20,542 bases of DNA from a virus (IMGVR_UViG_3300020156_000004:64001-84542); one strand, 5' to 3'; shown: positions 1,012 to 17,847, counted from the first letter of the stretch. Notes: generated by a model not told the origin, from the sequence alone. Made by a program: numbers and translations.

Positions 1012-1042
1012 TTTATTTCTGGTTCTAATTCCTTTATCTTTA
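1012..1042 (+). promoter_or_regulatory. Bacteroidota-type promoter for the 1059 operon
   Basis: TTTA at 1012-1015, a 19-base spacer and TATCTTTA at 1035-1042. The spacer contains CTGGTTCTAATT, with GG at spacer positions 6-7, the arrangement shared by ten promoters in this window. The predicted start of transcription is about 10 bases before the ATG at 1059. Confidence 0.6.
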
Positions 1043-1058
1043 TTCAAATAATTAATTT

Positions 1059-1286
1059 ATGAAAAAGACCCGAATCTATTTATGCGCCTTTAAAGATCAC
1101 CAAGCTGTTATCCTGGCAAAAGGAAGAAAGGAAGCCGCAAAGTTGATGGTATCAAATTTCATGTCTGCTACCGAAAGAGAGATAATGGCTGAGGCTAAAA
1201 CCGTTATTGTTACCCGGATAAGGAAATCCACTCCGACTCCTAGAATTCTATTACTTAAAACAATACTTAAAACAATTCCCGAATGA
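1059..1286 (+). CDS. hypothetical basic protein, 75 aa
   Basis: A small, strongly basic protein. The N-terminal stretch RIYLCAFKDHQAVILAKG resembles GIYLCIFKPKKVVIYANG in the 5894 gene product, so the two may share a small alpha/beta domain. The C-terminus is rich in Lys, Arg, Ile and Leu. It is the first gene after the promoter at 1012 and overlaps the next gene by ATGA (1283-1286). Function unknown. Confidence 0.72.
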   Translation: MKKTRIYLCAFKDHQAVILAKGRKEAAKLMVSNFMSATEREIMAEAKTVIVTRIRKSTPTPRILLLKTILKTIPE

Positions 1287-1486
1287 GAAAGATACTTTGG
1301 ATAGCCCTGGTATTATTCATCCTTGCCGAGATCTTCCTGAGCTCTGACCCTCAATCGGTAATAATGGAAGATATACCGGACTCCTTGAAGATCGCAAAGG
1401 ACACCTCAGGTTTTCCTGATCGAATGGTTCCTTTGCCCAAAAAGAAATTCAATGAGGAAAACCCCATAATAACCATAGAGAAATGA
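1283..1486 (+). CDS. small exported or membrane-anchored protein, 67 aa
   Basis: Residues 4-20 (ILWIALVLFILAEIFL) form one signal-anchor or signal peptide, followed by a short, polar, proline- and lysine-containing region of about 45 residues that would lie outside the cytoplasmic membrane. No lipobox cysteine. It is coupled to both neighbours by ATGA overlaps. The opposite-strand ORF over this region is a shadow. Confidence 0.72.
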   Translation: MRKILWIALVLFILAEIFLSSDPQSVIMEDIPDSLKIAKDTSGFPDRMVPLPKKKFNEENPIITIEK

Positions 1487-1845
1487 GCCGAACCAAGAAA
1501 CTCTACACTATCCACAAAGTTACCAAACATGACATTTGGAAAGGTAACCACTTCTTTGTAAAACACTATCTTACCGGTAAATACATTACCGCAATTGCCC
1601 AATCACGAATCTATAAACAGGAAGGTCTTGAGTATATTGATGTTCTTTGGCCCGATGATACATACGGAAGGGCAGTATGGGTTGATGGGGATGCTCTAAA
1701 ATTCCGCGAAAGGCCACATTGGGAGGTAGCCGATGGAGAAGGCCCAACTCTATTTGCTGGGGATGTTCCTAAGACCTGGGATGAAGCAAAAAAATTAAAC
1801 CAGGAATTAGGAATTGCGGTGGATAAAAAGGTGGATAAAAATTAA
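1483..1845 (+). CDS. hypothetical protein, 120 aa
   Basis: A soluble protein with basic N-terminus and acidic middle, rich in aromatic residues (IDVLWPDDTYGRAVWVDGD, then FRERPHWEV). The pattern suggests a small beta-rich domain followed by a helix near residues 98-110. It closes the operon begun at 1059, with an ATGA overlap at its start. The next promoter begins eight bases after its stop. No family recognised. Confidence 0.8.
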   Translation: MSRTKKLYTIHKVTKHDIWKGNHFFVKHYLTGKYITAIAQSRIYKQEGLEYIDVLWPDDTYGRAVWVDGDALKFRERPHWEVADGEGPTLFAGDVPKTWDEAKKLNQELGIAVDKKVDKN

Positions 1846-1853
1846 GATTCAGG

Positions 1854-1884
1854 TTTTTTCCTGGTTCTAATTATTATATATTTG
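1854..1884 (+). promoter_or_regulatory. Bacteroidota-type promoter for 1915
   Basis: TTTT (1854-1857), 19 bases, TATATTTG (1877-1884). The spacer carries CTGGTTCTAATT with GG at positions 6-7. The TTG at 1882 that would extend the next reading frame lies inside the -7 element, so it cannot be the real start codon. Confidence 0.65.
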
Positions 1885-1914
1885 GATATTCAAAGGGAAT
1901 CAATAAAACCATAT

Positions 1915-2355
1915 ATGACTAAGAAAAAGAAACGGGGCCGTCCAAAAAAGATTGACGTTAAAAGCACCCCGAAAAAGGAACATTGGAAGACTCGCCAAAA
2001 ACGGGAACGCGAATCTGCCAAATTGCAAATCGAAACTCCCGAACCAAAGAAGGATGATCTTTTTGAAATCTTCGAGCCGGTATCTATTGGTAAACAATAT
2101 GCCAAAACTGCTCGCATTGCGGAGAAACTCGAAAAGACCCTTAAAATCCTTAAACCCCGCCAGGCATTCAGAATTAAGAAGGAAGAAACTTCAAATGCCT
2201 TTGTTAGGCAATATCTGAATGACAAATACCCGAATCGGGACTATCGGGTATCCTCCTATCAAAAGAATGATGGGGTAGAATTTTTCATCGTAACCTATGT
2301 ACAGGAAACCAAACCCTCATACCCACAGGAAATCAAAAATCGGAAGTCCCGTTGA
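1915..2355 (+). CDS. basic protein with N-terminal AT-hook motif, 146 aa
   Basis: The start is set at the ATG at 1915 because the frame's earlier TTG lies in the promoter. The first ten residues hold the AT-hook core KKRGRPKK, a minor-groove DNA-binding element, followed by a long Lys/Arg-rich linker to about residue 50. The last 60 residues (from about FVRQYLNDKYPNRDYRV) look like a small folded alpha/beta domain. A DNA-binding or nucleoid-like role is plausible from the AT-hook; the C-terminal domain is not recognised. It is the only gene of its unit before a strong hairpin at 2383. Confidence 0.78.
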   Translation: MTKKKKRGRPKKIDVKSTPKKEHWKTRQKRERESAKLQIETPEPKKDDLFEIFEPVSIGKQYAKTARIAEKLEKTLKILKPRQAFRIKKEETSNAFVRQYLNDKYPNRDYRVSSYQKNDGVEFFIVTYVQETKPSYPQEIKNRKSR

Positions 2356-2382
2356 TATATGGATTATGGGTTAGTTAGTTAC

Positions 2383-2406
2383 GGAGCCGGATGTCTATCT
2401 GGCTCC
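2383..2406 (+). terminator. strong hairpin between genes, terminator-like
   Basis: GGAGCCGGAT (2383-2392) pairs fully with ATCTGGCTCC (2397-2406) around a four-base loop (one G-T pair). The run of five T starts about ten bases further on (2416-2420), too far for a classical intrinsic terminator. It could be a weak terminator, a processing site or an mRNA stabiliser between 1915 and 2446. Confidence 0.45.
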
Positions 2407-2445
2407 CACCTAACATTTTTCAAAAACTTCAAAATTTAAAATACC

Positions 2446-2880
2446 ATGAACATTAATGACTTCGACAAAGAGCCAACAGATGAAAACTGCACCTTTGATC
2501 TTAAAAAAGAGGCCGAGAGAATCCTCTTATCCCACAAGGCCTCATTTATGCTCAACTTTCTATCCAACCAGCCCTGGTATACAAGTCGTCGAGTAGAGGA
2601 CGTTGTTAGGGATGCTGCTGGGGCCTGGGATAAATTAGTTGCCAGTGGCCATATTGATGGTCTGATGGATGAAATTACCGAAAAACTCCGAGAGCGCCAT
2701 GACCATCATCAAATGAGGGAAATGATTGAAAAAGCCCTGGTAAACGGTGGAGTAATTGTACCTGACCAGGAAGGCAGACTTAAATTCCAGGCTCTCGATT
2801 CCCCTGACCAGGATATTTCTGATGAGGCTCCGGTAGTTCAGGAAACTAAGAAAAGGAAACCCCGAAAATTTGATGCTTAA
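2446..2880 (+). CDS. hypothetical helical protein, 144 aa
   Basis: Mostly helical and charged. Residues 15-95 read as successive amphipathic helices. A histidine-rich segment (ERHDHHQMREM) sits near residue 88. The C-terminus is acidic and then ends in a basic tail (KKRKPRKFDA). No signal peptide. It is followed after 11 bases by another basic gene, 2892, with which it probably forms an operon. No family recognised. Confidence 0.8.
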   Translation: MNINDFDKEPTDENCTFDLKKEAERILLSHKASFMLNFLSNQPWYTSRRVEDVVRDAAGAWDKLVASGHIDGLMDEITEKLRERHDHHQMREMIEKALVNGGVIVPDQEGRLKFQALDSPDQDISDEAPVVQETKKRKPRKFDA

Positions 2881-2891
2881 AATAAAATACC

Positions 2892-3335
2892 ATGGCAAAA
2901 GCAAAAAAGAAAGCCGCTCCTAAGAGAAGGGCGGCTCCTAAAAAGAAATCAGCTCCAGAGAAAACAATCAAACCCGATTTAAAACTCCTCAAAAAGGGTG
3001 CAGCACTCCAAATTGAATGGGACAATGGAAGCCTTAGATGTGAACGGGGGTATGTACTGTATAATGACAAAAACGAAATTGAACTTGTAACCTCCTCAAA
3101 GGCCCTTGAGGTGAAATACCATTTTATACCCAAAAGAGACATAGTAGCCCTCAAGCCTGTTAAATTGGATTTCCTATATATCCCAAATTTAACCGATGGG
3201 GGGTATAATGGTATCATTGATAAAAAGAGTAAGAAGATGAGGGTAGGATGCAATGAGGTAAAAATGGAACACATTAAAACCCTATATGATTTCTACTTCG
3301 GAGATAAGCCCCATAAATGGAAACATCGCAAATAG
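2892..3335 (+). CDS. protein with histone-like basic N-terminal tail, 147 aa
   Basis: The first 30 residues are almost entirely Lys, Ala, Pro and Arg (AKAKKKAAPKRRAAPKKKS), resembling bacterial H1-like tails. A mixed alpha/beta domain follows, with strands such as LQIEW and YVLYND and a basic loop, KKSKKMRVGC. The tail suggests nucleic-acid binding; the folded part is not recognised. It is the last gene before the terminator at 3349. The long opposite-strand frame here arises from the Lys/Ala-rich codons and is rejected. Confidence 0.8.
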   Translation: MAKAKKKAAPKRRAAPKKKSAPEKTIKPDLKLLKKGAALQIEWDNGSLRCERGYVLYNDKNEIELVTSSKALEVKYHFIPKRDIVALKPVKLDFLYIPNLTDGGYNGIIDKKSKKMRVGCNEVKMEHIKTLYDFYFGDKPHKWKHRK

Positions 3336-3348
3336 GGGTTGATTCTAG

Positions 3349-3386
3349 TGGGGATATCTGATTTATGGATATTCCCATTATTTTTT
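3349..3386 (+). terminator. intrinsic terminator
   Basis: TGGGGATATC (3349-3358) pairs with GATATTCCCA (3368-3377), with one G-T pair. A nine-base loop lies between the arms and TTATTTTTT follows. It lies 13 bases after the 2892 gene and ends that unit. Confidence 0.75.
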
Positions 3387-3425
3387 GGAAATAAGACGAC
3401 TAGACATACCCGAAATTAATTAAAA

Positions 3426-3456
3426 TTTGCCCCTGGTTCTTATATCCATATATTCA
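3426..3456 (+). promoter_or_regulatory. Bacteroidota-type promoter for 3475
   Basis: TTTG (3426-3429), 19 bases, TATATTCA (3449-3456), with CCTGGTTCTT in the spacer and GG at positions 6-7. The TTG at 3427 that would extend the next frame is part of the -33 element. Confidence 0.65.
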
Positions 3457-3474
3457 CAATTCAAATTAAAGAAG

Positions 3475-3798
3475 ATGAAGGAAATTACCCTCACCCCCCA
3501 ACAAAGAATCGAAGCCTATCAATATGTGCTAGATCAGGTTAGGGCAGGAGAATATCGCAATTGGATTTGCCTACACCTCCAAAATTGGATAGGTATAAAT
3601 TACCATAGGCAAATATCCACTTCAACACTCCTTAGATTATTCCCTGAATTTGCCGAGCAAAAGCCCATCAAACTGTATGACGAGAATCAGGATGTAGAGG
3701 GTGCTTGGTGGAATGGGTTAGATCGGGAAATAAGAATCAATGTACTTCAAAATGCCATCAAAAAATGTCAAGAATATGAAACCGGAAGAAATGATTGA
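3475..3798 (+). CDS. hypothetical protein, 107 aa (tandem paralogue of 3873)
   Basis: The start is placed at the ATG at 3475, downstream of the promoter; the frame's earlier TTG is promoter sequence. By eye it matches the product of 3873: an N-terminal helix with R-x-x-A-Y, a central W/C-L-x-x-W block, then F-P-E-[FL]-x(4)-P, a G-A/x-WW pair, and a C-terminal helix with a cysteine (NAIKKCQE versus DMCIQEVK). The two lie in tandem and probably arose by duplication. No biochemical role is apparent. Confidence 0.8.
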   Translation: MKEITLTPQQRIEAYQYVLDQVRAGEYRNWICLHLQNWIGINYHRQISTSTLLRLFPEFAEQKPIKLYDENQDVEGAWWNGLDREIRINVLQNAIKKCQEYETGRND

Positions 3799-3883
3799 CC
3801 TTGCCTTGACAGTATGTAAATTCCTAATACTGCTGGGCTTATTTCTCTATTTAATGGATAAAAACTCATATCATGAGCATTAA
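3776..3883 (+). CDS. micro membrane protein, 35 aa
   Basis: A short frame bridging the two paralogues. It starts at ATG 3776 (an in-frame alternative is 3791) inside the end of 3475 and stops at 3881-3883 inside the start of 3873. Residues 8-27 (LALTVCKFLILLGLFLYLM) form one clear transmembrane helix, followed by a short polar tail ending in HEH. The overlap on both sides fits the translational coupling seen elsewhere in the window. Function unknown. Confidence 0.5.
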   Translation: MKPEEMIDLALTVCKFLILLGLFLYLMDKNSYHEH

Positions 3884-4241
3884 AGTAATTCCGCCCTTAA
3901 CAAGGCTCAGAGCCTATAAGGAAATCAGGGCCGAACTTATGATGAATCCCGCCAATCGACCATTGCCTTTCCTTTGTGCAAGATTAGCTGGGTGGGTATG
4001 TAAAAGATTACCCGAATATAAAATAGACGGTTTGTTAGTATGGGTTACAGTGGCCTTTCCTGAATTGGAAAGAAGGAGGCCTAAGGGTATGGGATGTGCG
4101 GGGTGGTGGCCTATCAATGATTATGAAAGTAGAATCCAAGCCCTTGATATGTGTATTCAAGAAGTTAAATCAATAATATATGCCAACAATCAAAACAGAA
4201 CGGATGGACCCGGACGTAATCTACCTACAAAAGAGGTATGA
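3873..4241 (+). CDS. hypothetical protein, 122 aa (paralogue of 3475)
   Basis: Aligned by eye to the 3475 product: R-x-R-A-Y near the start, a hydrophobic block with cysteines (LPFLCARLAGWVCKRL), the FPELERRRP segment, a GWW motif near residue 75 and a C-terminal helix. The last 20 residues (NNQNRTDGPGRNLPTKEV) are polar and overlap the start of the 4180 gene. The opposite-strand frame is a shadow. Function unknown; DNA or protein binding is possible. Confidence 0.8.
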   Translation: MSIKVIPPLTRLRAYKEIRAELMMNPANRPLPFLCARLAGWVCKRLPEYKIDGLLVWVTVAFPELERRRPKGMGCAGWWPINDYESRIQALDMCIQEVKSIIYANNQNRTDGPGRNLPTKEV

Positions 4242-4335
4242 CGGGGTAATAGAAATCGGGGGTATCAGGTATCAATATGTATCGTATGTTACTACTACCT
4301 TCAATACTCAACTTTATAAATACAAAAGATTATGA
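4180..4335 (+). CDS. small hypothetical protein, 51 aa
   Basis: A frame from ATG 4180 (or ATG 4204, 43 aa) to TGA 4333-4335. The composition looks like a real beta-rich mini protein: DGVIEIGGIRYQYVSYV, then TTTFNTQLYKYKR. It overlaps the end of 3873 by about 60 bases if the first ATG is used. It fills what would otherwise be a gap before the next promoter. No family recognised. Confidence 0.5.
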   Translation: MPTIKTERMDPDVIYLQKRYDGVIEIGGIRYQYVSYVTTTFNTQLYKYKRL

Positions 4336-4348
4336 TTGAACCTTTCAG

Positions 4349-4379
4349 TTTGAATCCGGTTTGATATTCCTTATATTTG
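4349..4379 (+). promoter_or_regulatory. Bacteroidota consensus promoter for 4402
   Basis: A perfect match: TTTG (4349-4352), exactly 19 bases, TATATTTG (4372-4379). The spacer holds CCGGTTTGATATTCCT with GG at positions 6-7. It drives 4402 and the coupled lipoprotein gene 4710. Confidence 0.75.
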
Positions 4380-4401
4380 GATAAATCAAAAAATTGATTA
4401 T

Positions 4402-4713
4402 ATGCCTTGGAACAAAGAAATCAAACAAAACCTAATTGAAAAGGGTATCAAGGCCCTAAAAGAAGAAATGTTCAGGTCTAATCGGATGCAGTTATTAACT
4501 ATTCGAGATAACGTAGTGATGGTGAGATCAGAGATGGAGCCGGGAGAGTTCATATCCTGGGTAATGGCAATTCTGGTCAAGGGTTATGATGAGGAAACCG
4601 ATGAAGAAAATAACCTGGACCTGACTGCTGGTAACCTGGACTTCTACCAGGATGATCTTGATACCGGATATATCTGGGTATATTCATTAACCATAAAACA
4701 AATAGAAAGATGA
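4402..4713 (+). CDS. hypothetical protein, 103 aa
   Basis: A soluble acidic protein: an N-terminal amphipathic helix (residues 3-25), then strands (QLLTIRDNVVMVRSE), a hydrophobic helix (FISWVMAILVKGY) and an acidic loop followed by an aromatic C-terminal strand (TGYIWVYSLTI). It overlaps the lipoprotein gene by ATGA (4710-4713), so both are translated from one message. No known family. Confidence 0.8.
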   Translation: MPWNKEIKQNLIEKGIKALKEEMFRSNRMQLLTIRDNVVMVRSEMEPGEFISWVMAILVKGYDEETDEENNLDLTAGNLDFYQDDLDTGYIWVYSLTIKQIER

Positions 4714-5480
4714 AAAAGAGAACACTGTTTTCCGCTTTTGCCCTATTAGGGCTGATGGTATTATTGGGGTGCGAAAAGAATGAGGTTTATAACCCACCCC
4801 CAATTACCCTTGAACCAATCTCTCATGATTATGTCTTGGACCCCCCTGATACCATAACATTGGCAGATGGGCGAAAGGCAGTAGTACAGCAAAGAGTAGT
4901 CTATGACACAATCCCCCTTTCAGGTCCGGAGGTACCTGCCCGCCCTTTCGTCTTAATCGCATCAAGCAGCGGAACGACCTACATGTGGCCCGAGTTCATG
5001 ACAGTATTCAAAGACTTAAACCCTATACAAAAAGGGGTGGGAGGCCATGAATGGGGGCATTTTAGGAAAAGAATCCGCACGGATGCAGTCCCTTATAAAC
5101 CCAGGCAGGTAGTTATTATGGGTGGGGAGAATAATTGGTATAACGTTGTTAGTCGCGGAATAAAATTTGGCCCATTAGATTATGAGTATCTTGTAAAGAC
5201 TACCATTGATTCGGTAAAGAAATTACTCCCGGGGGTACACCTTACCATTGTTGAATGTAAAACCACCCCATATCTGAAGTCCGTTCATGCCCAGATTCGG
5301 GAAGGAAATAATCGAGCCGAGGCATTATTGAAGGTGAGATACCCAAATTCGAGCTTTGTGCGAATCAATGACATATTGGTGGATAGTGATTACCGAACTA
5401 CCGAAATTAACCGAATGCATTTGGTACCCGCAGCCAATAAGAAATTGGAATCCCGCATCAGGCCTGCGATAATAAAATAA
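4710..5480 (+). CDS. SGNH/GDSL-fold hydrolase-like lipoprotein, 256 aa
   Basis: The signal peptide ends in lipobox LLGC, with Cys21 as the lipid anchor. The body follows the order of SGNH hydrolases. Block I is FVLIASSSGTTYMW (82-93), Ser86 probably being the nucleophile. A GVGG turn (109-112) stands for block II. Block III is PRQVVIMGGENN (131-142), with Asn141 as the oxyanion residue. Block V is EINRMHL with His237. The segment PYKPRQVVIMGGEN closely resembles the GDSL subgroup that reads YKPRxIVxYAGEND. The position three before the histidine, normally the catalytic Asp, is Asn234, and the block I glycine is Ala84, so activity may be altered. Likely role: de-esterification of surface glycans or peptidoglycan at the envelope (inference). 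It is the second gene of the 4402 unit. Confidence 0.72.
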   Translation: MKKRTLFSAFALLGLMVLLGCEKNEVYNPPPITLEPISHDYVLDPPDTITLADGRKAVVQQRVVYDTIPLSGPEVPARPFVLIASSSGTTYMWPEFMTVFKDLNPIQKGVGGHEWGHFRKRIRTDAVPYKPRQVVIMGGENNWYNVVSRGIKFGPLDYEYLVKTTIDSVKKLLPGVHLTIVECKTTPYLKSVHAQIREGNNRAEALLKVRYPNSSFVRINDILVDSDYRTTEINRMHLVPAANKKLESRIRPAIIK

Positions 5481-5482
5481 AG

Positions 5483-5513
5483 TTTGATTGTGGTATCTAT
5501 TCCTATATATTTG
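5483..5513 (+). promoter_or_regulatory. Bacteroidota consensus promoter for 5518
   Basis: TTTG (5483-5486), 19 bases, TATATTTG (5506-5513), with GTGGTATCTATTCC in the spacer. The ATG of the next gene begins only four bases after this element, so the transcript should be leaderless or nearly so. Confidence 0.75.
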
Positions 5514-5517
5514 ATAT

Positions 5518-5877
5518 ATGGAAAAAAATATAATCAAAACAACAGACCCTTACCTCGCTCAATGTATCAAATACTTAGCAGATACATTGGGCGAGATTAA
5601 GGTAACCGAGGATATTAACCTCGAAACATTCAAAGAATTGACCACCATAATTGAGCTCCATAATGGAGGATTCAAGACCCCGATAGAAATGACGGATGGC
5701 CGAATTGGGGATGGTAGATATTCCGATTTAGAATGGGCAGCCCTGGTTCATCAACAAATGCGAATTGCCGATAATTATGACCTCTATGGGTTTGAAGAGG
5801 CGAGGGTTGCATTTAAGGATTTCAAGAAAAGATGGCCCGCATTATATGAACTGTTCGAGTTATTTGCATGGGGATAA
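5518..5877 (+). CDS. hypothetical protein, 119 aa, probably leaderless
   Basis: A soluble, acidic, largely helical protein with no signal or membrane segment. The ATG at 5518 lies directly behind the -7 element. The next in-frame Met is residue 58, so this start appears genuine and translation probably begins at or next to the first transcribed base. The C-terminal third (KDFKKRWPALYELFELFAW) is an aromatic amphipathic helix. No family recognised. Confidence 0.8.
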   Translation: MEKNIIKTTDPYLAQCIKYLADTLGEIKVTEDINLETFKELTTIIELHNGGFKTPIEMTDGRIGDGRYSDLEWAALVHQQMRIADNYDLYGFEEARVAFKDFKKRWPALYELFELFAWG

Positions 5878-5893
5878 AAAATCAACCAAATAT

Positions 5894-6214
5894 ATGGCAA
5901 CATTAATTTTTCCAAATTCAGACATGCGGAAGATTACCGAGACCTCGGCAAAGATGATGTCCTTTGTAAAGGATTCCGGTATATATCTTTGCATCTTTAA
6001 ACCTAAGAAAGTAGTAATCTACGCCAATGGATATGACCCGAGAAAGAGTGATGTTTGGGACAGGGCAAGAGAGGCAGTGGGTGGGGATGATTTCGTCGAA
6101 GAAATTGAGGTTGATGATGAAATAAGGAAGTATGTATCAGAAGGTTGGGATTTTATGATTAAAGTAACCCCCGATACCCTTCAAACCGGATTTCAAAAAC
6201 CCAAAAATAAATAA
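5894..6214 (+). CDS. hypothetical protein, 106 aa
   Basis: The frame stays open upstream into the end of 5518, but the ATG at 5894, 16 bases after that gene's stop, is the sensible start. The core GIYLCIFKPKKVVIYANG resembles part of the 1059 product. Acidic residues follow (DDFVEEIEVDDE), then a C-terminal strand and basic tail. It is followed after one base by 6216, so it lies inside an operon driven from 5483. Function unknown. Confidence 0.78.
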   Translation: MATLIFPNSDMRKITETSAKMMSFVKDSGIYLCIFKPKKVVIYANGYDPRKSDVWDRAREAVGGDDFVEEIEVDDEIRKYVSEGWDFMIKVTPDTLQTGFQKPKNK

Positions 6215-6215
6215 C

Positions 6216-6545
6216 ATGCCACGTAAGTACAAAGACAATGAAGCAGCCCTTAAAGGTTTCATTAAGGATGCTGCCTGGAATGCACACCTCCTCGCATTAA
6301 CCCGAGAAAGGCTTCTTAAAATGGTGGATTTAACTCGCCAGAGTATTAGGGAAAATCCCACAGCCTTTGATAACCCCTTATATCATCATACCCATTATTT
6401 AGCCTGGTGCGATAAGGTAGAAGAACATCTGGGTTTTGAAGAGGATAAACCTGCCTATGATAATACCAAACAAAACCCAATGGAGAGTATGCAAGAGTAT
6501 TTTGATAGGGCTAAAAGAGAAGGTTTCGACCCCTTAAAAGATTAA
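6216..6545 (+). CDS. hypothetical helical protein, 109 aa
   Basis: The ATG comes one base after the preceding TAA. The N-terminal half is basic and helical (ALKGFIKDAAWNAHLLALTR, then RLLKMVDLTRQSI). The middle has a histidine/tyrosine cluster (PLYHHTHYLAWCD), and the C-terminus is a second helix ending in GFDPLKD. No signal peptide. It is the last gene of the 5483 unit and overlaps no neighbour; the next promoter starts two bases after its stop. No family recognised. Confidence 0.8.
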   Translation: MPRKYKDNEAALKGFIKDAAWNAHLLALTRERLLKMVDLTRQSIRENPTAFDNPLYHHTHYLAWCDKVEEHLGFEEDKPAYDNTKQNPMESMQEYFDRAKREGFDPLKD

Positions 6546-6547
6546 GG

Positions 6548-6578
6548 TTTGAATGTGGTATTCTATTCCTTATATTGC
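6548..6578 (+). promoter_or_regulatory. Bacteroidota-type promoter for 6594
   Basis: TTTG (6548-6551), 19 bases, TATATTGC (6571-6578), with AATGTGGTATTCTATTCCT as the spacer. The block TATATTGCATCAAAT recurs at the promoters at 8124 and 10742. Confidence 0.7.
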
Positions 6579-6593
6579 ATCAAATAAAAGAAT

Positions 6594-6941
6594 ATGAAAA
6601 AACTCACACCTATTCAAGCCGCCTTTCTCTATTGGGTAATATTCAACTTTGGAGAAACGGGTTGGAAATCTCATGAGCCCATTATTAATGAGGCAAAAGC
6701 AATCCTTGGCAATTCCAATTACCCATCGGAGGTAGTATATGACAATGAGGGGGCGCCAATGATTGATTGGACCCAATTTGGCGGAGAGAGCCCAGATCAT
6801 TACAACCCTGCAAATTGGCTTTGGGAGAATGAGGAAGAAGGTGAGGAAAAACCCCAGTATAAGGCTCCATTCGATTTCCTATTTGAATTTCCCACACCTG
6901 AGAATCTTGGTTTTATAATCACCCAAATAAAAGAATCATGA
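6594..6941 (+). CDS. hypothetical protein, 115 aa
   Basis: Acidic and aromatic. The N-terminus is a hydrophobic helix (PIQAAFLYWVIFNFGETGW) that is probably part of the fold, being preceded only by MKKLT. An acidic, tryptophan-rich middle (NPANWLWENEEEGEE) and a phenylalanine-rich end (FDFLFEFPTPENLGF) follow. It overlaps 6938 by ATGA. The frame on the other strand is a shadow. No known family. Confidence 0.8.
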   Translation: MKKLTPIQAAFLYWVIFNFGETGWKSHEPIINEAKAILGNSNYPSEVVYDNEGAPMIDWTQFGGESPDHYNPANWLWENEEEGEEKPQYKAPFDFLFEFPTPENLGFIITQIKES

Positions 6942-7261
6942 GAACCCTTATCACATTAGTCTCATTGACCTTTATCATGGCAATGACATTCTTTATCGAG
7001 CCCAAACCGACTCCTCATTCATGCCCATTTGGAATGTGTCCCATGACCGGAGAGGTTTATTTCTCACCCCAATATGATGGGTGCGATAATTACATCTGTA
7101 CCCAATTAGATTCGATTCATTGGGCATATCCTACCTTCGATTATGACCAATGTGATTCGGTATTGACGGTTTGGAGCAAATCAAATCCCGCCCTGGCTGA
7201 TTCCATAGCCCGATTTGAGGCTATAGAAATGCAGAGACTTGAATATCAAGGCCTCAGGTAA
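6938..7261 (+). CDS. exported cysteine-containing protein, 107 aa
   Basis: A signal peptide or anchor covers residues 3-20 (TLITLVSLTFIMAMTFF), with no lipobox. The mature part has five cysteines (29, 34, 49, 54, 72) in a compact stretch of 45 residues, suggesting disulfides in the periplasm. A helix rich in Ala, Glu and Gln forms the C-terminus. It is coupled by ATGA to 6594. It is the last gene before the promoter at 7269. Function unknown. Confidence 0.76.
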   Translation: MRTLITLVSLTFIMAMTFFIEPKPTPHSCPFGMCPMTGEVYFSPQYDGCDNYICTQLDSIHWAYPTFDYDQCDSVLTVWSKSNPALADSIARFEAIEMQRLEYQGLR

Positions 7262-7268
7262 AAATATT

Positions 7269-7300
7269 TTTGATTTAGGGTTCTAATTTTATTATCTTCG
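7269..7300 (+). promoter_or_regulatory. Bacteroidota-type promoter for 7325
   Basis: TTTG (7269-7272), a 20-base spacer with AGGGTTCTAATT, and TATCTTCG (7293-7300). It shares the GGTTCTAA spacer block with the promoters at 1012 and 1854. Confidence 0.6.
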
Positions 7301-7324
7301 CATAAATAATAATATATTCATTTT

Positions 7325-7687
7325 ATGGCAAAAAAGAATGAAGTTAGAATTTATCACTCGCAGGTGGGTGGACATCAGCCGGAATTTTCAATGAATCCCT
7401 CAGAGTATCTGGTTGATGCAGATATACCCAAATTGGACCTATCAAAATTGCATTATCATCCGGGTGATGAAGAAGAAGAAGAACCGGGATATTACAGTTA
7501 TCCGGTGGGTTCAAATCCTGATGAGATTCCAACCAATTGGGGGGTAGAGAGAACCGGAATAGATGATACCTGGGATTTATTTACATGGGGAGTGAAAGAG
7601 GGTTCAGATATGATGAAAGAGGTTGAGTTATTTGCAGAGCATTGCAAGGAAAGGCTCGGAAGAACCATTATTATTAACTGTTATTAA
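7325..7687 (+). CDS. hypothetical acidic protein, 120 aa
   Basis: A soluble, acidic protein with a run of five Glu after GD near residue 50 (HPGDEEEEEPGYYSYP). The middle is rich in Pro, Gly and Tyr and probably unstructured. The C-terminal 40 residues (LFTWGVKEGSDMMKEVELFA onward) form a helix and a final hydrophobic strand, RTIIINCY. It is the first gene of a unit with 7694 and 7852. No family recognised. Confidence 0.8.
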   Translation: MAKKNEVRIYHSQVGGHQPEFSMNPSEYLVDADIPKLDLSKLHYHPGDEEEEEPGYYSYPVGSNPDEIPTNWGVERTGIDDTWDLFTWGVKEGSDMMKEVELFAEHCKERLGRTIIINCY

Positions 7688-7693
7688 TCAGGT

Positions 7694-7846
7694 ATGATTA
7701 TCCAACAAAAGAACACAACGATCAAACAAAAGGGTAAGGAGATCAAACTCCTTATCCCTCACCATATAATTGAGGTAAATGTGACCCTGCATCAAGAGGG
7801 TTATCATGGCCCTGCAAAATACATTTTTAACAAGGTATTAAATTAA
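7694..7846 (+). CDS. small hypothetical protein, 50 aa
   Basis: A clean frame from ATG 7694 to TAA 7844-7846, filling the gap between 7325 and 7852 with six and five bases on either side. The product is basic, with a hydrophobic strand pattern (KEIKLLIPHHIIEVNVTL) like that in the 7852 product (LLILPAHTVLEIG), so the two may share a small beta fold. No family recognised. Confidence 0.6.
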   Translation: MIIQQKNTTIKQKGKEIKLLIPHHIIEVNVTLHQEGYHGPAKYIFNKVLN

Positions 7847-7851
7847 CCATT

Positions 7852-8118
7852 ATGAACCTGAATCACATTGACATTAGCCTCCTTCAAGAAGCCGAATTAG
7901 AGGAGTTTAAACAATCAACTTATGCGGTTGAAAAAGGTCTATTTGTTGCGGTGGATGCCGAAGATATAGACCTATTAATCCTACCAGCCCATACAGTCCT
8001 GGAAATCGGTAAATCAACGGATAAATATGGTGATATGAACCTACATGTAAGGTATTTGGCAGGCGGTAAAGAATTCCTTACCCATATATCGGGTAGTTAT
8101 GCCTTCATTCATAAATAA
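7852..8118 (+). CDS. hypothetical protein, 88 aa
   Basis: A small acidic protein with an N-terminal helix (LLQEAELEEFKQ) and then alternating strands (GLFVAVDAEDIDLLILPAHT and NLHVRYLAGG). No signal peptide or membrane segment. It starts five bases after 7694 and ends just before the 8124 promoter. No family recognised. Confidence 0.8.
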   Translation: MNLNHIDISLLQEAELEEFKQSTYAVEKGLFVAVDAEDIDLLILPAHTVLEIGKSTDKYGDMNLHVRYLAGGKEFLTHISGSYAFIHK

Positions 8119-8123
8119 TGTGG

Positions 8124-8154
8124 TTGGAATGTGGTATGTGAATCATTATATTGC
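8124..8154 (+). promoter_or_regulatory. Bacteroidota-type promoter for 8170
   Basis: TTGG (8124-8127), 19 bases including AATGTGGTATG, TATATTGC (8147-8154). It shares GAATGTGGTAT and TATATTGCATCAAAT with the promoter at 6548. The message would have a leader of only about 10 bases. Confidence 0.65.
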
Positions 8155-8169
8155 ATCAAATTATAAGAT

Positions 8170-8523
8170 ATGAATAATTCGAGGTATTCAATTAACAAGT
8201 TGACAAATCGCAGGTTTGATTATCTTATCCGCCGCGAGAGGTGGAAGAAAGACCGTAATAAATGGTTATCCCTGGCGGATTCATTGACAATGCAGGCCTC
8301 CTTCCCCGATTCAGGGTATTATTATAGCCTGCAATCAAGGGAAAGGGATAGGATAGGCCTTAAGATCATTGACAAATTACCGAAGAAAACCAAGATTCTA
8401 TACCTATATAAGGCCAAACAGATTGAACGGAGAAATGCCTCATATTATGAATCCACAATCCAGTTGCAAGATGGAAGTTGGGTGAGCCCCTATGAATTGG
8501 ATGCAATGATGGTATACCATTAA
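8170..8523 (+). CDS. hypothetical basic protein, 117 aa
   Basis: Strongly basic. The N-terminal 40 residues are Arg/Lys-rich (RFDYLIRRERWKKDRNKWLS). The middle is tyrosine-rich, and the strands KKTKILYLYKAKQIER and ESTIQLQDGSWVSP suggest a small beta element. A single-gene unit between its promoter and the next one. Nucleic-acid binding is possible from charge alone; no motif supports it. Confidence 0.78.
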   Translation: MNNSRYSINKLTNRRFDYLIRRERWKKDRNKWLSLADSLTMQASFPDSGYYYSLQSRERDRIGLKIIDKLPKKTKILYLYKAKQIERRNASYYESTIQLQDGSWVSPYELDAMMVYH

Positions 8524-8541
8524 TCGGGTACGGAAAAAAAG

Positions 8542-8573
8542 TTTGGAATCAGGTTCAAAATGATTTATATTTG
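8542..8573 (+). promoter_or_regulatory. Bacteroidota-type promoter for 8610
   Basis: TTTG (8542-8545), 20 bases with ATCAGGTTC, TATATTTG (8566-8573). GG lies 12 bases before the -7 element, as in the other members. The leader would be about 30 bases. Confidence 0.65.
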
Positions 8574-8609
8574 TTATGTCTTTAATTATTCACATAAAAA
8601 CTCCAAAAC

Positions 8610-9002
8610 ATGGAATCAAAGACCACAGCTCCTGAAGTAAAGGACAGCCCTGCAAAAAAGAAATCACAGGGTAAGAAATCCAAACTCCAGAAAAAGAACA
8701 TCGACAAGGCCGCAAAGAAGGCAAAGGATGAGGAAGAAGAATCCAGCCGGGAATTGCTCTACAATTATCCAGCCGATGTAAAGACCGCATCCGACAAGAA
8801 AACATGGCGCCGACAATTCCGTGCCAAAAGGGATTCGCTCCTGAAAAAGATCGCGAAAGCCCGTAAGGACGACATGAAGGAAGCCCGCAAATTGTTCAAG
8901 GAACTCAATGAACACCTGAAAGAGTCTTGCACTCAATCGGGCATTGACAAATCACTCCAGGGTTTCAAAGCCCTTCCTGCGAAGGAGAAAGCAACCGCTT
9001 AA
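8610..9002 (+). CDS. basic protein with RE-x-x-Y-x-YP motif, 130 aa (related to 11696)
   Basis: The first 47 residues are low-complexity Lys/Ala/Glu/Ser. A helical domain follows, opening with SRELLYNYPADV and continuing with KKTWRRQFRAKRDSLLKKI and a long charged helix. The same order, with DRESFYKYPEFV then KAWREKRRKVL, occurs in the 11696 product, so the two appear homologous despite the different base composition of their genes. The basic tail and helical body are compatible with DNA or RNA binding or a virion-core protein. Followed by the hairpin at 9033. Confidence 0.8.
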   Translation: MESKTTAPEVKDSPAKKKSQGKKSKLQKKNIDKAAKKAKDEEEESSRELLYNYPADVKTASDKKTWRRQFRAKRDSLLKKIAKARKDDMKEARKLFKELNEHLKESCTQSGIDKSLQGFKALPAKEKATA

Positions 9003-9012
9003 ACGGGGTTCC

Positions 9013-9063
9013 TCGACTGCGGATGATCTAGTAAGGAATCCAGTCGATTAGATTGGATTCCTT
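9013..9063 (+). terminator. terminator hairpin with possible pseudoknot arm
   Basis: AAGGAATCCA (9033-9042) pairs perfectly with TGGATTCCTT (9054-9063), followed by TAATTCATT, a weak T tract. The loop contains GTCGA (9043-9047), complementary to TCGAC at 9013-9017; including overlapping bases, TCGACTG pairs with CAGTCGA over seven bases. It lies just after the 8610 stop. Confidence 0.55.
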
Positions 9064-9132
9064 TAATTCATTAAAAAATCCGCTAGAATCTACACTAAAA
9101 TGACCCAAAAACATACCTAAAACATATCTATC

Positions 9133-9684
9133 ATGGAAGGATTTATTCCCGGTTTTATAATAGGGTTTGCGAGCTCTATTCTCCTAATAATAATCGCAAT
9201 ATTCACCGCAAGATGGTTCATTCGAGAGTTCCGGGTGGACGATCATAATAAGGCCAAGATCAAAGGCAAGAAAGAACCCAATATGGAGGCCTTATCAAAT
9301 GAGAACATTTACCGAGAAATCCAGAACCTCTCACACCTGCCCGAACGAGCAGACCAAAAGACTATGGAAAAATGGGCATGGGAAAGAATACAAACCCATA
9401 GCCTTGAAATCCTGAAAGAAATCGAGTTCATATATGGACTAAGAAAGGAAGAACCCAGCCTACATCTCATAAGATACCCAATGATGCTCAATGCTATATC
9501 AAACCCAATAATTGCGGCATATAAACAGATGAAAGGCCCGATATCAAAAGATACCATAAACCTCATAATCGAGGAACACCTAAACGAGCCCAAATCCAAC
9601 ACAGATAAGGAGTACCAAGAAAACCCTGTAATGCAACGCAATAAAAACAGAGAGCAAGAACCCGGATATCAAAACATAGATTAA
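9133..9684 (+). CDS. single-span membrane protein with helical cytoplasmic domain, 183 aa
   Basis: Residues 5-28 (IPGFIIGFASSILLIIIAIF) form one transmembrane helix, followed by basic residues. The rest is a soluble, mainly helical domain: KTMEKWAWERIQTHSLEILK, then a hydrophobic helix at MMLNAISNPIIAAYKQM. The C-terminal 30 residues are polar and probably disordered. No close promoter of the window's usual type was seen; it ends at a clear terminator (9705). Function unknown. Confidence 0.8.
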   Translation: MEGFIPGFIIGFASSILLIIIAIFTARWFIREFRVDDHNKAKIKGKKEPNMEALSNENIYREIQNLSHLPERADQKTMEKWAWERIQTHSLEILKEIEFIYGLRKEEPSLHLIRYPMMLNAISNPIIAAYKQMKGPISKDTINLIIEEHLNEPKSNTDKEYQENPVMQRNKNREQEPGYQNID

Positions 9685-9704
9685 AACATAAGCTCACTAA
9701 ACCA

Positions 9705-9734
9705 AGAGGGTATGTTTTATACCCTCTATTTTTT
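9705..9734 (+). terminator. intrinsic terminator
   Basis: AGAGGGTAT (9705-9713) pairs perfectly with ATACCCTCT (9719-9727) around GTTTT, followed by ATTTTTT. It is 21 bases after the 9133 gene. Confidence 0.85.
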
Positions 9735-9752
9735 AACCCAAATATAAAGGCC

Positions 9753-10577
9753 ATGAAAGCCCGCAAAACCAAGAAGAATAAAAACGGAATCAAGAGAACG
9801 CAAATAGATATACCAAAAGGCCTAAGGGTACCCAGATTAAGAGGTACCACATTAATGGCCATCGAAGCCCACCAAACCAAAGATAAGAAGGAAACTATCA
9901 TGAGTAATATAAGGAAACTCTATATAGACCATTACACACTCAATAATATGACTGTATTAGGGAGAACTGTAAATATAGAGGATATGGCAACCTGGCTAAA
10001 TATACCAACCAAATACCTATTGAGAGAGTTAAATAGAGAAGTCGGAAGGATAGGAAACATACTCCAAGGTAAGGATGGGGCTCAATTCACTAGGGCTCTC
10101 TTAATGGGCTTAATTTCGAAAAGCCTAGAAGCCCACAGCCTCATTGCCAATCAGGTACACATATTAAGTAGCCAACAGGGCCGTGAATATGTACCCTTTC
10201 TTACCTCTGAGCTCAATAAGATCTTGGCAACCTTAAGTACTGCTACTAAACCAGTTACGGAGATAGTGAAGCTATTAACGGACAACAATCCAGGCGTAAT
10301 AATCAACAACGTGAACGGTGCCCAGGCTAACATATCTAATTCATCTATTACAGTAGATCAAGCAGTGAATCTTATTAAGTCTGAGGGCTTTTTATCTATG
10401 CTGGAAGATGAGGGTTTACTTAACCAGAAGTTGTTGACGATGGGTACCGATTTACCCGAAATAAGGGCCCAATACCAAGACCTAAACTCCATAGGCATTA
10501 AGGTACCCAATAAGGCTATTGATGGGCCCAATGAGCCCACGAAGCCTTATAAGGATGATATTATAGAGATACAATAG
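9753..10577 (+). CDS. DNA-binding protein, possible small terminase subunit, 274 aa
   Basis: A basic N-terminal tail (about 1-50) precedes a helix-turn-helix-like segment near residues 60-100 (VNIEDMATWLNIPTKYLLRE). A helical region at 112-175 (TRALLMGLISKSLEAHSLIA and YVPFLTSELNKILATLSTAT) comes next, then a short asparagine-rich strand (GVIINNVNGAQANI) and a polar C-terminus. HTH plus helical oligomerisation region plus a tail is the general layout of phage small terminases, but no large-subunit gene is in the window and the match is not diagnostic. A transcription regulator is the alternative. It lies alone between two terminators and lacks a recognisable promoter. Confidence 0.6.
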   Translation: MKARKTKKNKNGIKRTQIDIPKGLRVPRLRGTTLMAIEAHQTKDKKETIMSNIRKLYIDHYTLNNMTVLGRTVNIEDMATWLNIPTKYLLRELNREVGRIGNILQGKDGAQFTRALLMGLISKSLEAHSLIANQVHILSSQQGREYVPFLTSELNKILATLSTATKPVTEIVKLLTDNNPGVIINNVNGAQANISNSSITVDQAVNLIKSEGFLSMLEDEGLLNQKLLTMGTDLPEIRAQYQDLNSIGIKVPNKAIDGPNEPTKPYKDDIIEIQ

Positions 10578-10578
10578 T

Positions 10579-10593
10579 TCACTATATATAGCT
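10579..10593 (+). repeat. first copy of TCACTATATATAGCT
   Basis: The 15-base sequence TCACTATATATAGCT, containing the palindrome CTATATATAG, is found again exactly at 11237-11251. This copy lies directly after the 9753 gene; the other lies after the terminator of 10788. Together they bracket about 640 bases holding one gene. Confidence 0.6.
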
Positions 10594-10602
10594 AACCACT
10601 AA

Positions 10603-10630
10603 GGCCCGGATTTACCATCCGGGCCTTTTT
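10603..10630 (+). terminator. intrinsic terminator
   Basis: GGCCCGGAT (10603-10611) pairs perfectly with ATCCGGGCC (10617-10625) across a five-base loop, followed by TTTTT. It ends transcription of 9753. Confidence 0.88.
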
Positions 10631-10648
10631 ATTGGTTTTTTAGTGTGT

Positions 10649-10721
10649 GGGCCGTTACTAGGAGCCAAATGGGCCATCTAGGCCTTAATAGGGGTAAATG
10701 GCCAGGTAGGCCACTTGGGCC
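10649..10721. repeat. GGCC-rich non-coding repeat array
   Basis: Six GGCC sites in 73 bases. Two copies of GGCC-N5-GGCC (10672-10684 and 10700-10712) lie 28 bases apart, each able to form a small hairpin; the second reads TGGCC-AGGTA-GGCCA. Each is preceded by AAATGG. They are flanked by GGGCCGT at 10649 and again at 10717. No reading frame explains this stretch. Confidence 0.6.
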
Positions 10722-10741
10722 GTATTAAATAAAAATTTGGC

Positions 10742-10772
10742 ATTTATCCTGGCATTAAAATCCTTATATTGC
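10742..10772 (+). promoter_or_regulatory. promoter for 10788 with weak -33
   Basis: TATATTGC at 10765-10772 is followed by ATCAAAT, exactly as at 6548 and 8124, and GG sits at spacer positions 6-7 (CCTGGCATT). The -33 tetramer at the right distance is only ATTT, though TTTGG occurs six bases further upstream. Confidence 0.55.
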
Positions 10773-11251: not shown

Positions 11252-11322
11252 CGTACCTTGCCTTGATGCAGCCCCCCCTGGCCCTAATTCCGACCTGGGA
11301 TATTTGAAAAAAAAAATTCGAC

Positions 11323-11354
11323 ATTTTGACTTTTTGACTTTTTGACTATTTGAC
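11323..11354. repeat. 8-bp tandem repeat array, consensus TTTTTGAC
   Basis: Four head-to-tail octamers, ATTTTGAC, TTTTTGAC, TTTTTGAC, TATTTGAC, preceded by another GAC at 11320-11322, so five GAC triplets occur at an exact 8-base period. A further TTTTTGAC lies at 11565-11572. The array is about 125 bases upstream of the promoter at 11479. Confidence 0.75.
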
Positions 11355-11478
11355 TTTTATACGTTTATTGTCAAAAATTCATCTATTTATTATAAAACTA
11401 TTCTACAATTATTCTAAAATTGATCTAAAACAATTAATAAAAAATTGCAACAAATTTGCAAAATTCGATAGGTAAATA

Positions 11479-11509
11479 TTTGGATTCCGCTTTTAGATAA
11501 TTATCTTTG
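11479..11509 (+). promoter_or_regulatory. canonical host-type promoter of the AT-rich module
   Basis: A perfect match: TTTG (11479-11482), exactly 19 bases, TATCTTTG (11502-11509). Unlike the ten other promoters, its spacer has no GG at positions 6-7. Confidence 0.75.
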
Positions 11510-17818: not shown

Positions 17819-17847
17819 TTTATAAGATAATAGTCCACCCCTGTCAA
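17819..17847 (-). promoter_or_regulatory. promoter-like sequence with sigma70 spacing
   Basis: On the minus strand TTGACA (17847-17842), 17 bases, TATAAA (17824-17819), ahead of the 17805 start. This is the enterobacterial sigma70 layout, not the Bacteroidota one used on the plus strand, so it may be fortuitous. TATCTTAT inside the spacer is an alternative -7 element. Confidence 0.35.

Follow-up and report, generated by a model that had tools for sequence, protein, structure and literature searches.

Host promoters in Bacteroidota have AT-rich spacers of variable length (PMC7366714). Among phages, the closest described arrangements come from T4 and its relatives. In T4, 12 +/- 1 bp separate the MotA box from the -10 element (PMC2988021), and the early promoters of T4-like phages carry an additional consensus that differs between these phages (PMC1524935). 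In the literature searched, we found no papers on transcription in Bacteroidota phages, which is not proof that none exist; next to nothing is recorded there on the takeover by phages of these hosts, whose sigma factor and promoters are unlike those of E. coli. Here we describe a class of phage promoters that combines elements of the Bacteroidota housekeeping type with two nearly invariant G residues inside the spacer.

The window, meaning the whole stretch of DNA analysed (20,542 nucleotides), comprises positions 64,001-84,542, the final 20.5 kb of a virus contig (G000) with a length of 84,542 bases; the remainder of the contig was covered as loci L001-L004. The contig represents a myovirus, with PHROG matches to tail sheath, portal, terminase, DNA polymerase A, a UvsX-like recombinase, and SbcCD. 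DNA comparison with the annotated phage collection revealed no close relative, and searches with single proteins likewise found none. The nearest annotated relative that we found is MT121964, from the human gut, whose DNA polymerase (L127 11168-14446) is a single 1092-aa frame with an insert resembling an intein or homing element. A search with an alignment of its sigma region-4-like (sigma4-like) protein recovered 31 IMG/VR loci. We refer to records that group with MT121964 and other faecal records as the gut clade and to the others as non-gut, labels given by this grouping and not by where each IMG/VR contig was sampled. The -7 elements described below point to a Bacteroidota host for the phage. 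Two family contigs, L180 and L181, lie inside public metagenome-assembled genomes labelled Spirochaetaceae and Dysosmobacter (the only two such contigs from the genome scan), and this placement probably reflects mis-binned phage.

The preliminary description of the window had listed ten promoters, and all ten were located, each on the plus strand. They span positions 1012..1042 (-33 TTTA, GG at 1021-1022, -7 TATCTTTA at 1035), 1854..1884 (TTTT, GG at 1863-1864, TATATTTG at 1877), 3426..3456 (TTTG, GG at 3435-3436, TATATTCA at 3449), 4349..4379 (TTTG, GG at 4358-4359, TATATTTG at 4372), and 5483..5513 (TTTG, GG at 5492-5493, TATATTTG at 5506). The remaining five are at 6548..6578 (TTTG, GG at 6557-6558, TATATTGC at 6571), 7269..7300 (TTTG one base further out, GG at 7279-7280, TATCTTCG at 7293), 8124..8154 (TTGG, GG at 8133-8134, TATATTGC at 8147), 8542..8573 (TTTG one base further out, GG at 8552-8553, TATATTTG at 8566), and 10742..10772 (ATTT, GG at 10751-10752, TATATTGC at 10765). 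Thus, the -7 element is exactly TATATTTG at four sites and TATATTGC at three, with TATCTTCG, TATCTTTA, and TATATTCA used once each.

These sites had been said to follow the Bacteroidota pattern throughout. This holds for the -7 element, which reads TATnTT in 10/10 sites, but the -33 element is weaker than claimed. TTTG is in register at only 4/10 sites and rises to 6/10 if the two promoters with TTTG one base further out (7269 and 8542) are included; the other four are degenerate (TTTA, TTTT, TTGG, and ATTT). A T-tract at -23/-22 relative to the -7 element is also kept in the class. As previously described, GG occupies a fixed place that ends 12 bases before the -7 element, corresponding to -14/-13 when counted from its first T, in all ten sites. 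With the -7 element taken as -11 to -4, this places the GG at about -25/-24. Nine sites read GGT, the exception being 10742 with GGC. The two sub-classes noted earlier, GGTTCTAA-like and GTGGTAT-like, are both present, and the TATATTGCATCAAAT tail is common to three sites.

The GG feature is real and strongly conserved, as several calculations confirm. Away from this offset, GG occurs in the same sites with a frequency of 0.027, and its presence in 10/10 sites by chance has a probability of about 8e-15 with 38 offsets allowed for, assuming that the sites were not picked for GG. To this assumption we can bring a matrix scan of the whole contig, on both strands, in which the GGT columns were ignored. 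The ten sites and one new site at G000 56628, outside the window, scored at least 24.6, and the next best match reached 16.2. The eleventh site has CTGGTTT at the box position, and the exact 12-base placement of GG relative to the -7 element therefore holds in 11/11 sites. That a matrix blind to the GGT columns ranks the same sites at the top and adds another site with GG guards against an artefact of site picking. Furthermore, each G column carries 2.6 bits, compared with 0.2-1.2 for most spacer neighbours and at most 1.6 for the -7 columns. Weak -7 matches across the genome show little GG excess, and GG is therefore the mark of one promoter class and not of every TAnnTTTG. That the ten sites and G000 56628 form a single class is well supported. 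A pattern scan over viral contigs gave matches that, among those listed, apparently arose mostly by chance.

The box, by which we mean the G-containing spacer element, also occurs in related phages. The promoter directly downstream of the sigma4-like gene is kept in nearly all relatives. GG is found at the same place in L130/G001 (TTTCTGGTAGTTAATAATATATATTTG), where protein identity to this phage is 48%, and in L131/G002 (CCCCTGGGTTTAAATTTATTATATTTG), where it is about 40%; in L180, this promoter has a box that contains G. In G002, GG at this offset accompanies 11 noncoding -7-like sites, which lie mostly in its accessory region. About ten of its box promoters are of the TTGGGTTTTAA type and stand mostly before genes without a homologue in the present phage; likewise, most accessory genes of the present contig lack a homologue in G002. 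Other, more distant lineages carry different letters at about the same place, with each consensus drawn by eye: TTGCATGGGGA in L137, TTGCAnAGGGATAT in L142, GGTTAT-like boxes in L140, and GTTATT-like boxes in L146, L147, and L153. By the same reading, AGTTA appears in 3/7 sites of L136/G006, and L180 has GTWWACnTAGTGTT, in which GTT is one base further upstream and GTWWAC stands in place of TTTG.

The gut clade differs from this picture. In a strict promoter set, G is present at -14 in 64% of 67 non-gut sites versus 7% of 28 gut-clade sites, and T at -12 in 69% versus 7% of the same sites. A clade formed by L133, L134, and L143 also has no clear box. The box appears on most deep branches of the tree, a distribution that, judged by eye, fits ancestry of the element followed by loss in two clades. 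The main new result of this comparison is that the feature extends to a family of phages, with a box whose letters change while its position stays.

Promoter-like sites on Bacteroidota plasmids were used for comparison. G at -14 occurs in 6/36 plasmid sites versus 41/66 sites of non-gut phages (p about 1e-5), and stricter filters give smaller samples with the same direction (p 1e-4 to 4e-3); the plasmid sites are predicted promoters from Emticicia, Spirosoma, Pedobacter, Mucilaginibacter, Chryseobacterium, Flavobacterium, Pontibacter, and Flagellimonas, genera that need not include the true host. As far as this small sample goes, the box does not appear to be a general Bacteroidota feature.

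Not all promoters of the phage carry the box. The comparison promoter of host type, at 11479..11509 on the plus strand, has TTTG and, with its -7 element TATCTTTG at 11502, reads CG at -14/-13, which agrees with the earlier statement that it lacks GG. Several head-to-tail TTTTTGAC-like repeats lie upstream of it in a very AT-rich segment (11322-11360) and could be an operator or an iteron array. GG-less promoter-like sites elsewhere in the contig include G000 59575, 61513, and 36529, the last on the minus strand. Downstream of the site at G000 59575, L004:11658-12068 encodes a 136-aa protein that is extremely acidic, with runs of Asp and Glu, and that has a similar counterpart in MT121964. The promoter of a minus-strand core gene (35850-36473) is also without G in G002, G003, and G012; the orthologous promoter in G002 and G003 is TATATTTG without G, though both phages have box promoters.

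A second motif, ACTATW, lies a short distance ahead of several core genes. It is found upstream of the gene at 54439 in 22/22 sequences (expected 2.1), and upstream of those at 41249 (6/6), 36633 (5/6), 61540 (7/10), and 24369 (4/6), counts that are inflated by kinship and for which the form of the motif is not independent of the data, since it was spotted by reading and then counted. The 22/22 result is nonetheless notable, given that the proteins concerned share 32-57% identity. The motif before the 54439 gene (L004 6438) is found in the gut clade as well. Within the window, ACTATT occurs at about 11645 on the plus strand, and ACTATW near 17829 and 18306 on the minus strand. Most ACTATW sites have no adjoining TAnnTTTG. 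We consider ACTATW a putative second class of promoter-like motif before core genes across the family.

Which protein might read these elements? The preliminary description had proposed a phage-specific activator, sigma factor, or RNA polymerase modifier. The phage-specific spacer element at its core is supported, being more invariant than the -7 element, common in position though not in letters to diverged relatives, and mostly absent from the small sample of predicted plasmid promoters and from other promoters of these phages. A complete phage sigma factor or RNA polymerase is not supported: with controls working, profile searches of five phages gave no match to an RNA polymerase beta subunit or to sigma region 2 (Sigma70_r2). 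Therefore, the host RNA polymerase is presumably used. A sigma region-4 profile likewise had no match in this genome. However, the family-wide sigma4-like protein (L004:7644-8558, 304 aa) is confidently modelled (mean pLDDT 88.8) with a region-4 fold at its N-terminus. Most of its top PDB matches are sigma -35-binding domains, with a best target-normalised TM score of 0.84, an rmsd of 1.2, and a probability of 1.00, at E-values >0.1. About 240 residues after this fold have no credible Pfam match. The gene follows a NusG-like gene in an operon with ACTATW in front.

As a reader of the G box, the sigma4-like protein has been set back. Its recognition helix (S/A-H-Y/F-K-Y/F-L-E, about residues 40-46) hardly changes across all lineages, whereas the box is variable. 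Because both the helix and ACTATW are invariant, the protein suits the ACTATW class better. P209 (L004:8661-9290, equal to G000 56661-57290) is a better candidate for the box, though that it is the reader is a guess. It is the first gene behind the conserved box promoter at G000 56628, and every lineage checked has kept it. Three helices at the end of its model could form a helix-turn-helix, and a fold search with this model gave no confident match. Seven alignment columns of P209 fully separate box lineages from gut lineages, three of which (202, 203, and 206) lie in the last helix; for the sigma4-like protein, 1/26 separating columns falls within the sigma4-like domain. This apparent co-variation with the box is suggestive only, because all gut lineages belong to one branch.

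The reading we prefer, at a probability of roughly 0.4, is that the host sigma factor recognises the -7 element while the box is recognised by a protein that the phage encodes or recruits and that activates early and accessory operons together. The class would consist of a Bacteroidota housekeeping-type promoter (a T-tract or TTTG at -33 and TAnnTTTG at -7) to which the spacer box is added, and it would drive early and accessory operons of small, fast-evolving genes. The box-binding protein would dock beside the host holoenzyme in the manner of T4 MotA, and its preferred letters would shift by lineage, such that the box drifts while its position remains fixed. The early timing is suggested by the promoter type and by the genes served, which mostly lack homologues in relatives; that a protein reads the box and activates is likewise our inference. 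Several observations weigh against this reading. First, P209 has no confident fold match, and its co-variation is confounded by one clade split. Second, the -33 element is kept in most sites and hence, L180 excepted, there is no plain MotA-like replacement. Third, if the class is immediate-early, an activator made by the phage would come too late unless it were injected. Finally, T4 early promoters carry an extra lineage-specific consensus and yet are read by host RNA polymerase (PMC1524935, PMC2988021).

This last point leads to the main rival, a serious one that we nevertheless think somewhat unlikely, in which host RNA polymerase reads the box directly. The sites would then be over-strong immediate-early promoters, the G would be a strengthening contact, and differences between lineages would be differences between hosts. 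The presence of the -7 and mostly of the -33 element suits this explanation, as does the lack of matches to a phage beta subunit or sigma region 2. In T4, the extra early consensus is thought to optimise binding of host RNA polymerase (PMC2988021), and it varies among T4-like phages (PMC1524935). The gut clade, whose hosts are probably different, is without the box. However, predicted plasmid promoters of eight non-Bacteroidales genera mostly lack the G (in a small sample, and the host may differ), and Gs that are more invariant than the -7 element would be odd for an auxiliary contact. The orthologous 35850-36473 promoter, G-less in G002 and G003 beside their box promoters, also weighs against direct reading.

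Rather improbable is a box that serves as an operator, at which a phage protein silences all early operons jointly when expression shifts to the middle or late phase. A position in the spacer suits repression, a single lineage-specific box on class-wide operons fits coordinate shut-off, and the ACTATW class before core genes makes a class switch plausible. However, a dyad operator is unsupported: the eleven sites have no dyad symmetry (best centre 0.40 paired, p=0.96), which is unusual for a dimeric repressor. Still less probable, and in our view very unlikely, is that the promoters are recent cassette copies spread by recombination, with GG reflecting shared ancestry without function. The TATATTGCATCAAAT tail and the sub-classes are what such copying might leave behind, but divergence has left the spacer neighbours with 0.2-1.2 bits, against 2.6 for the Gs, and the Gs sit at the same position in diverged phages, mostly before unrelated genes. 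Sigma-54 promoters (GG at -24, GC at -12) are excluded in spite of the placement of GG at about -25/-24, as every site has a housekeeping-type -7 element and GC at N10 after GG occurs in 0/11 sites.

Activation through a protein that reads the box can be extended, quite speculatively, to the whole family, which may place two phage-specific codes on host RNA polymerase: the drifting -25/-24 box with a co-drifting phage reader (P209 or another early protein), and the invariant ACTATW with a region-4 protein of unusual architecture. If true, it would extend takeover of the sigma-appropriation type beyond the T4 world. A box that drifts at a fixed place would also have practical value. It predicts co-regulated genes, could be used to list early genes in the sequences of uncultured phages, and brings the reader within reach of a simple assay.

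Compared with known systems, the class resembles Bacteroidota sigma-ABfr promoters (TTTG at about -33 and TAnnTTTG at about -7) in its -7 element and, mostly, in having a T-tract or TTTG at -33, 19-20 bases further upstream, and it differs in adding a near-invariant G box to the spacer. With T4 middle promoters, it shares a box at a fixed and similar distance from a host -10-type element (here 12 bases, 11/11) and, presumably, the use of host RNA polymerase. However, the sequence of the box is unrelated, the -33 element is mostly kept and not replaced by the box, and no MotA or AsiA homologues are among the PHROG matches of genes scanned at 43.5-63.4 kb, where small ORFans are only partly covered. 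As in T4-like early promoters, the upstream element of the host type is mostly kept, the class stands before many novel genes, and its consensus beyond the sigma elements differs between relatives; what sets it apart from them is that the extra element consists of two spacer Gs that are more conserved than the -7 element itself.
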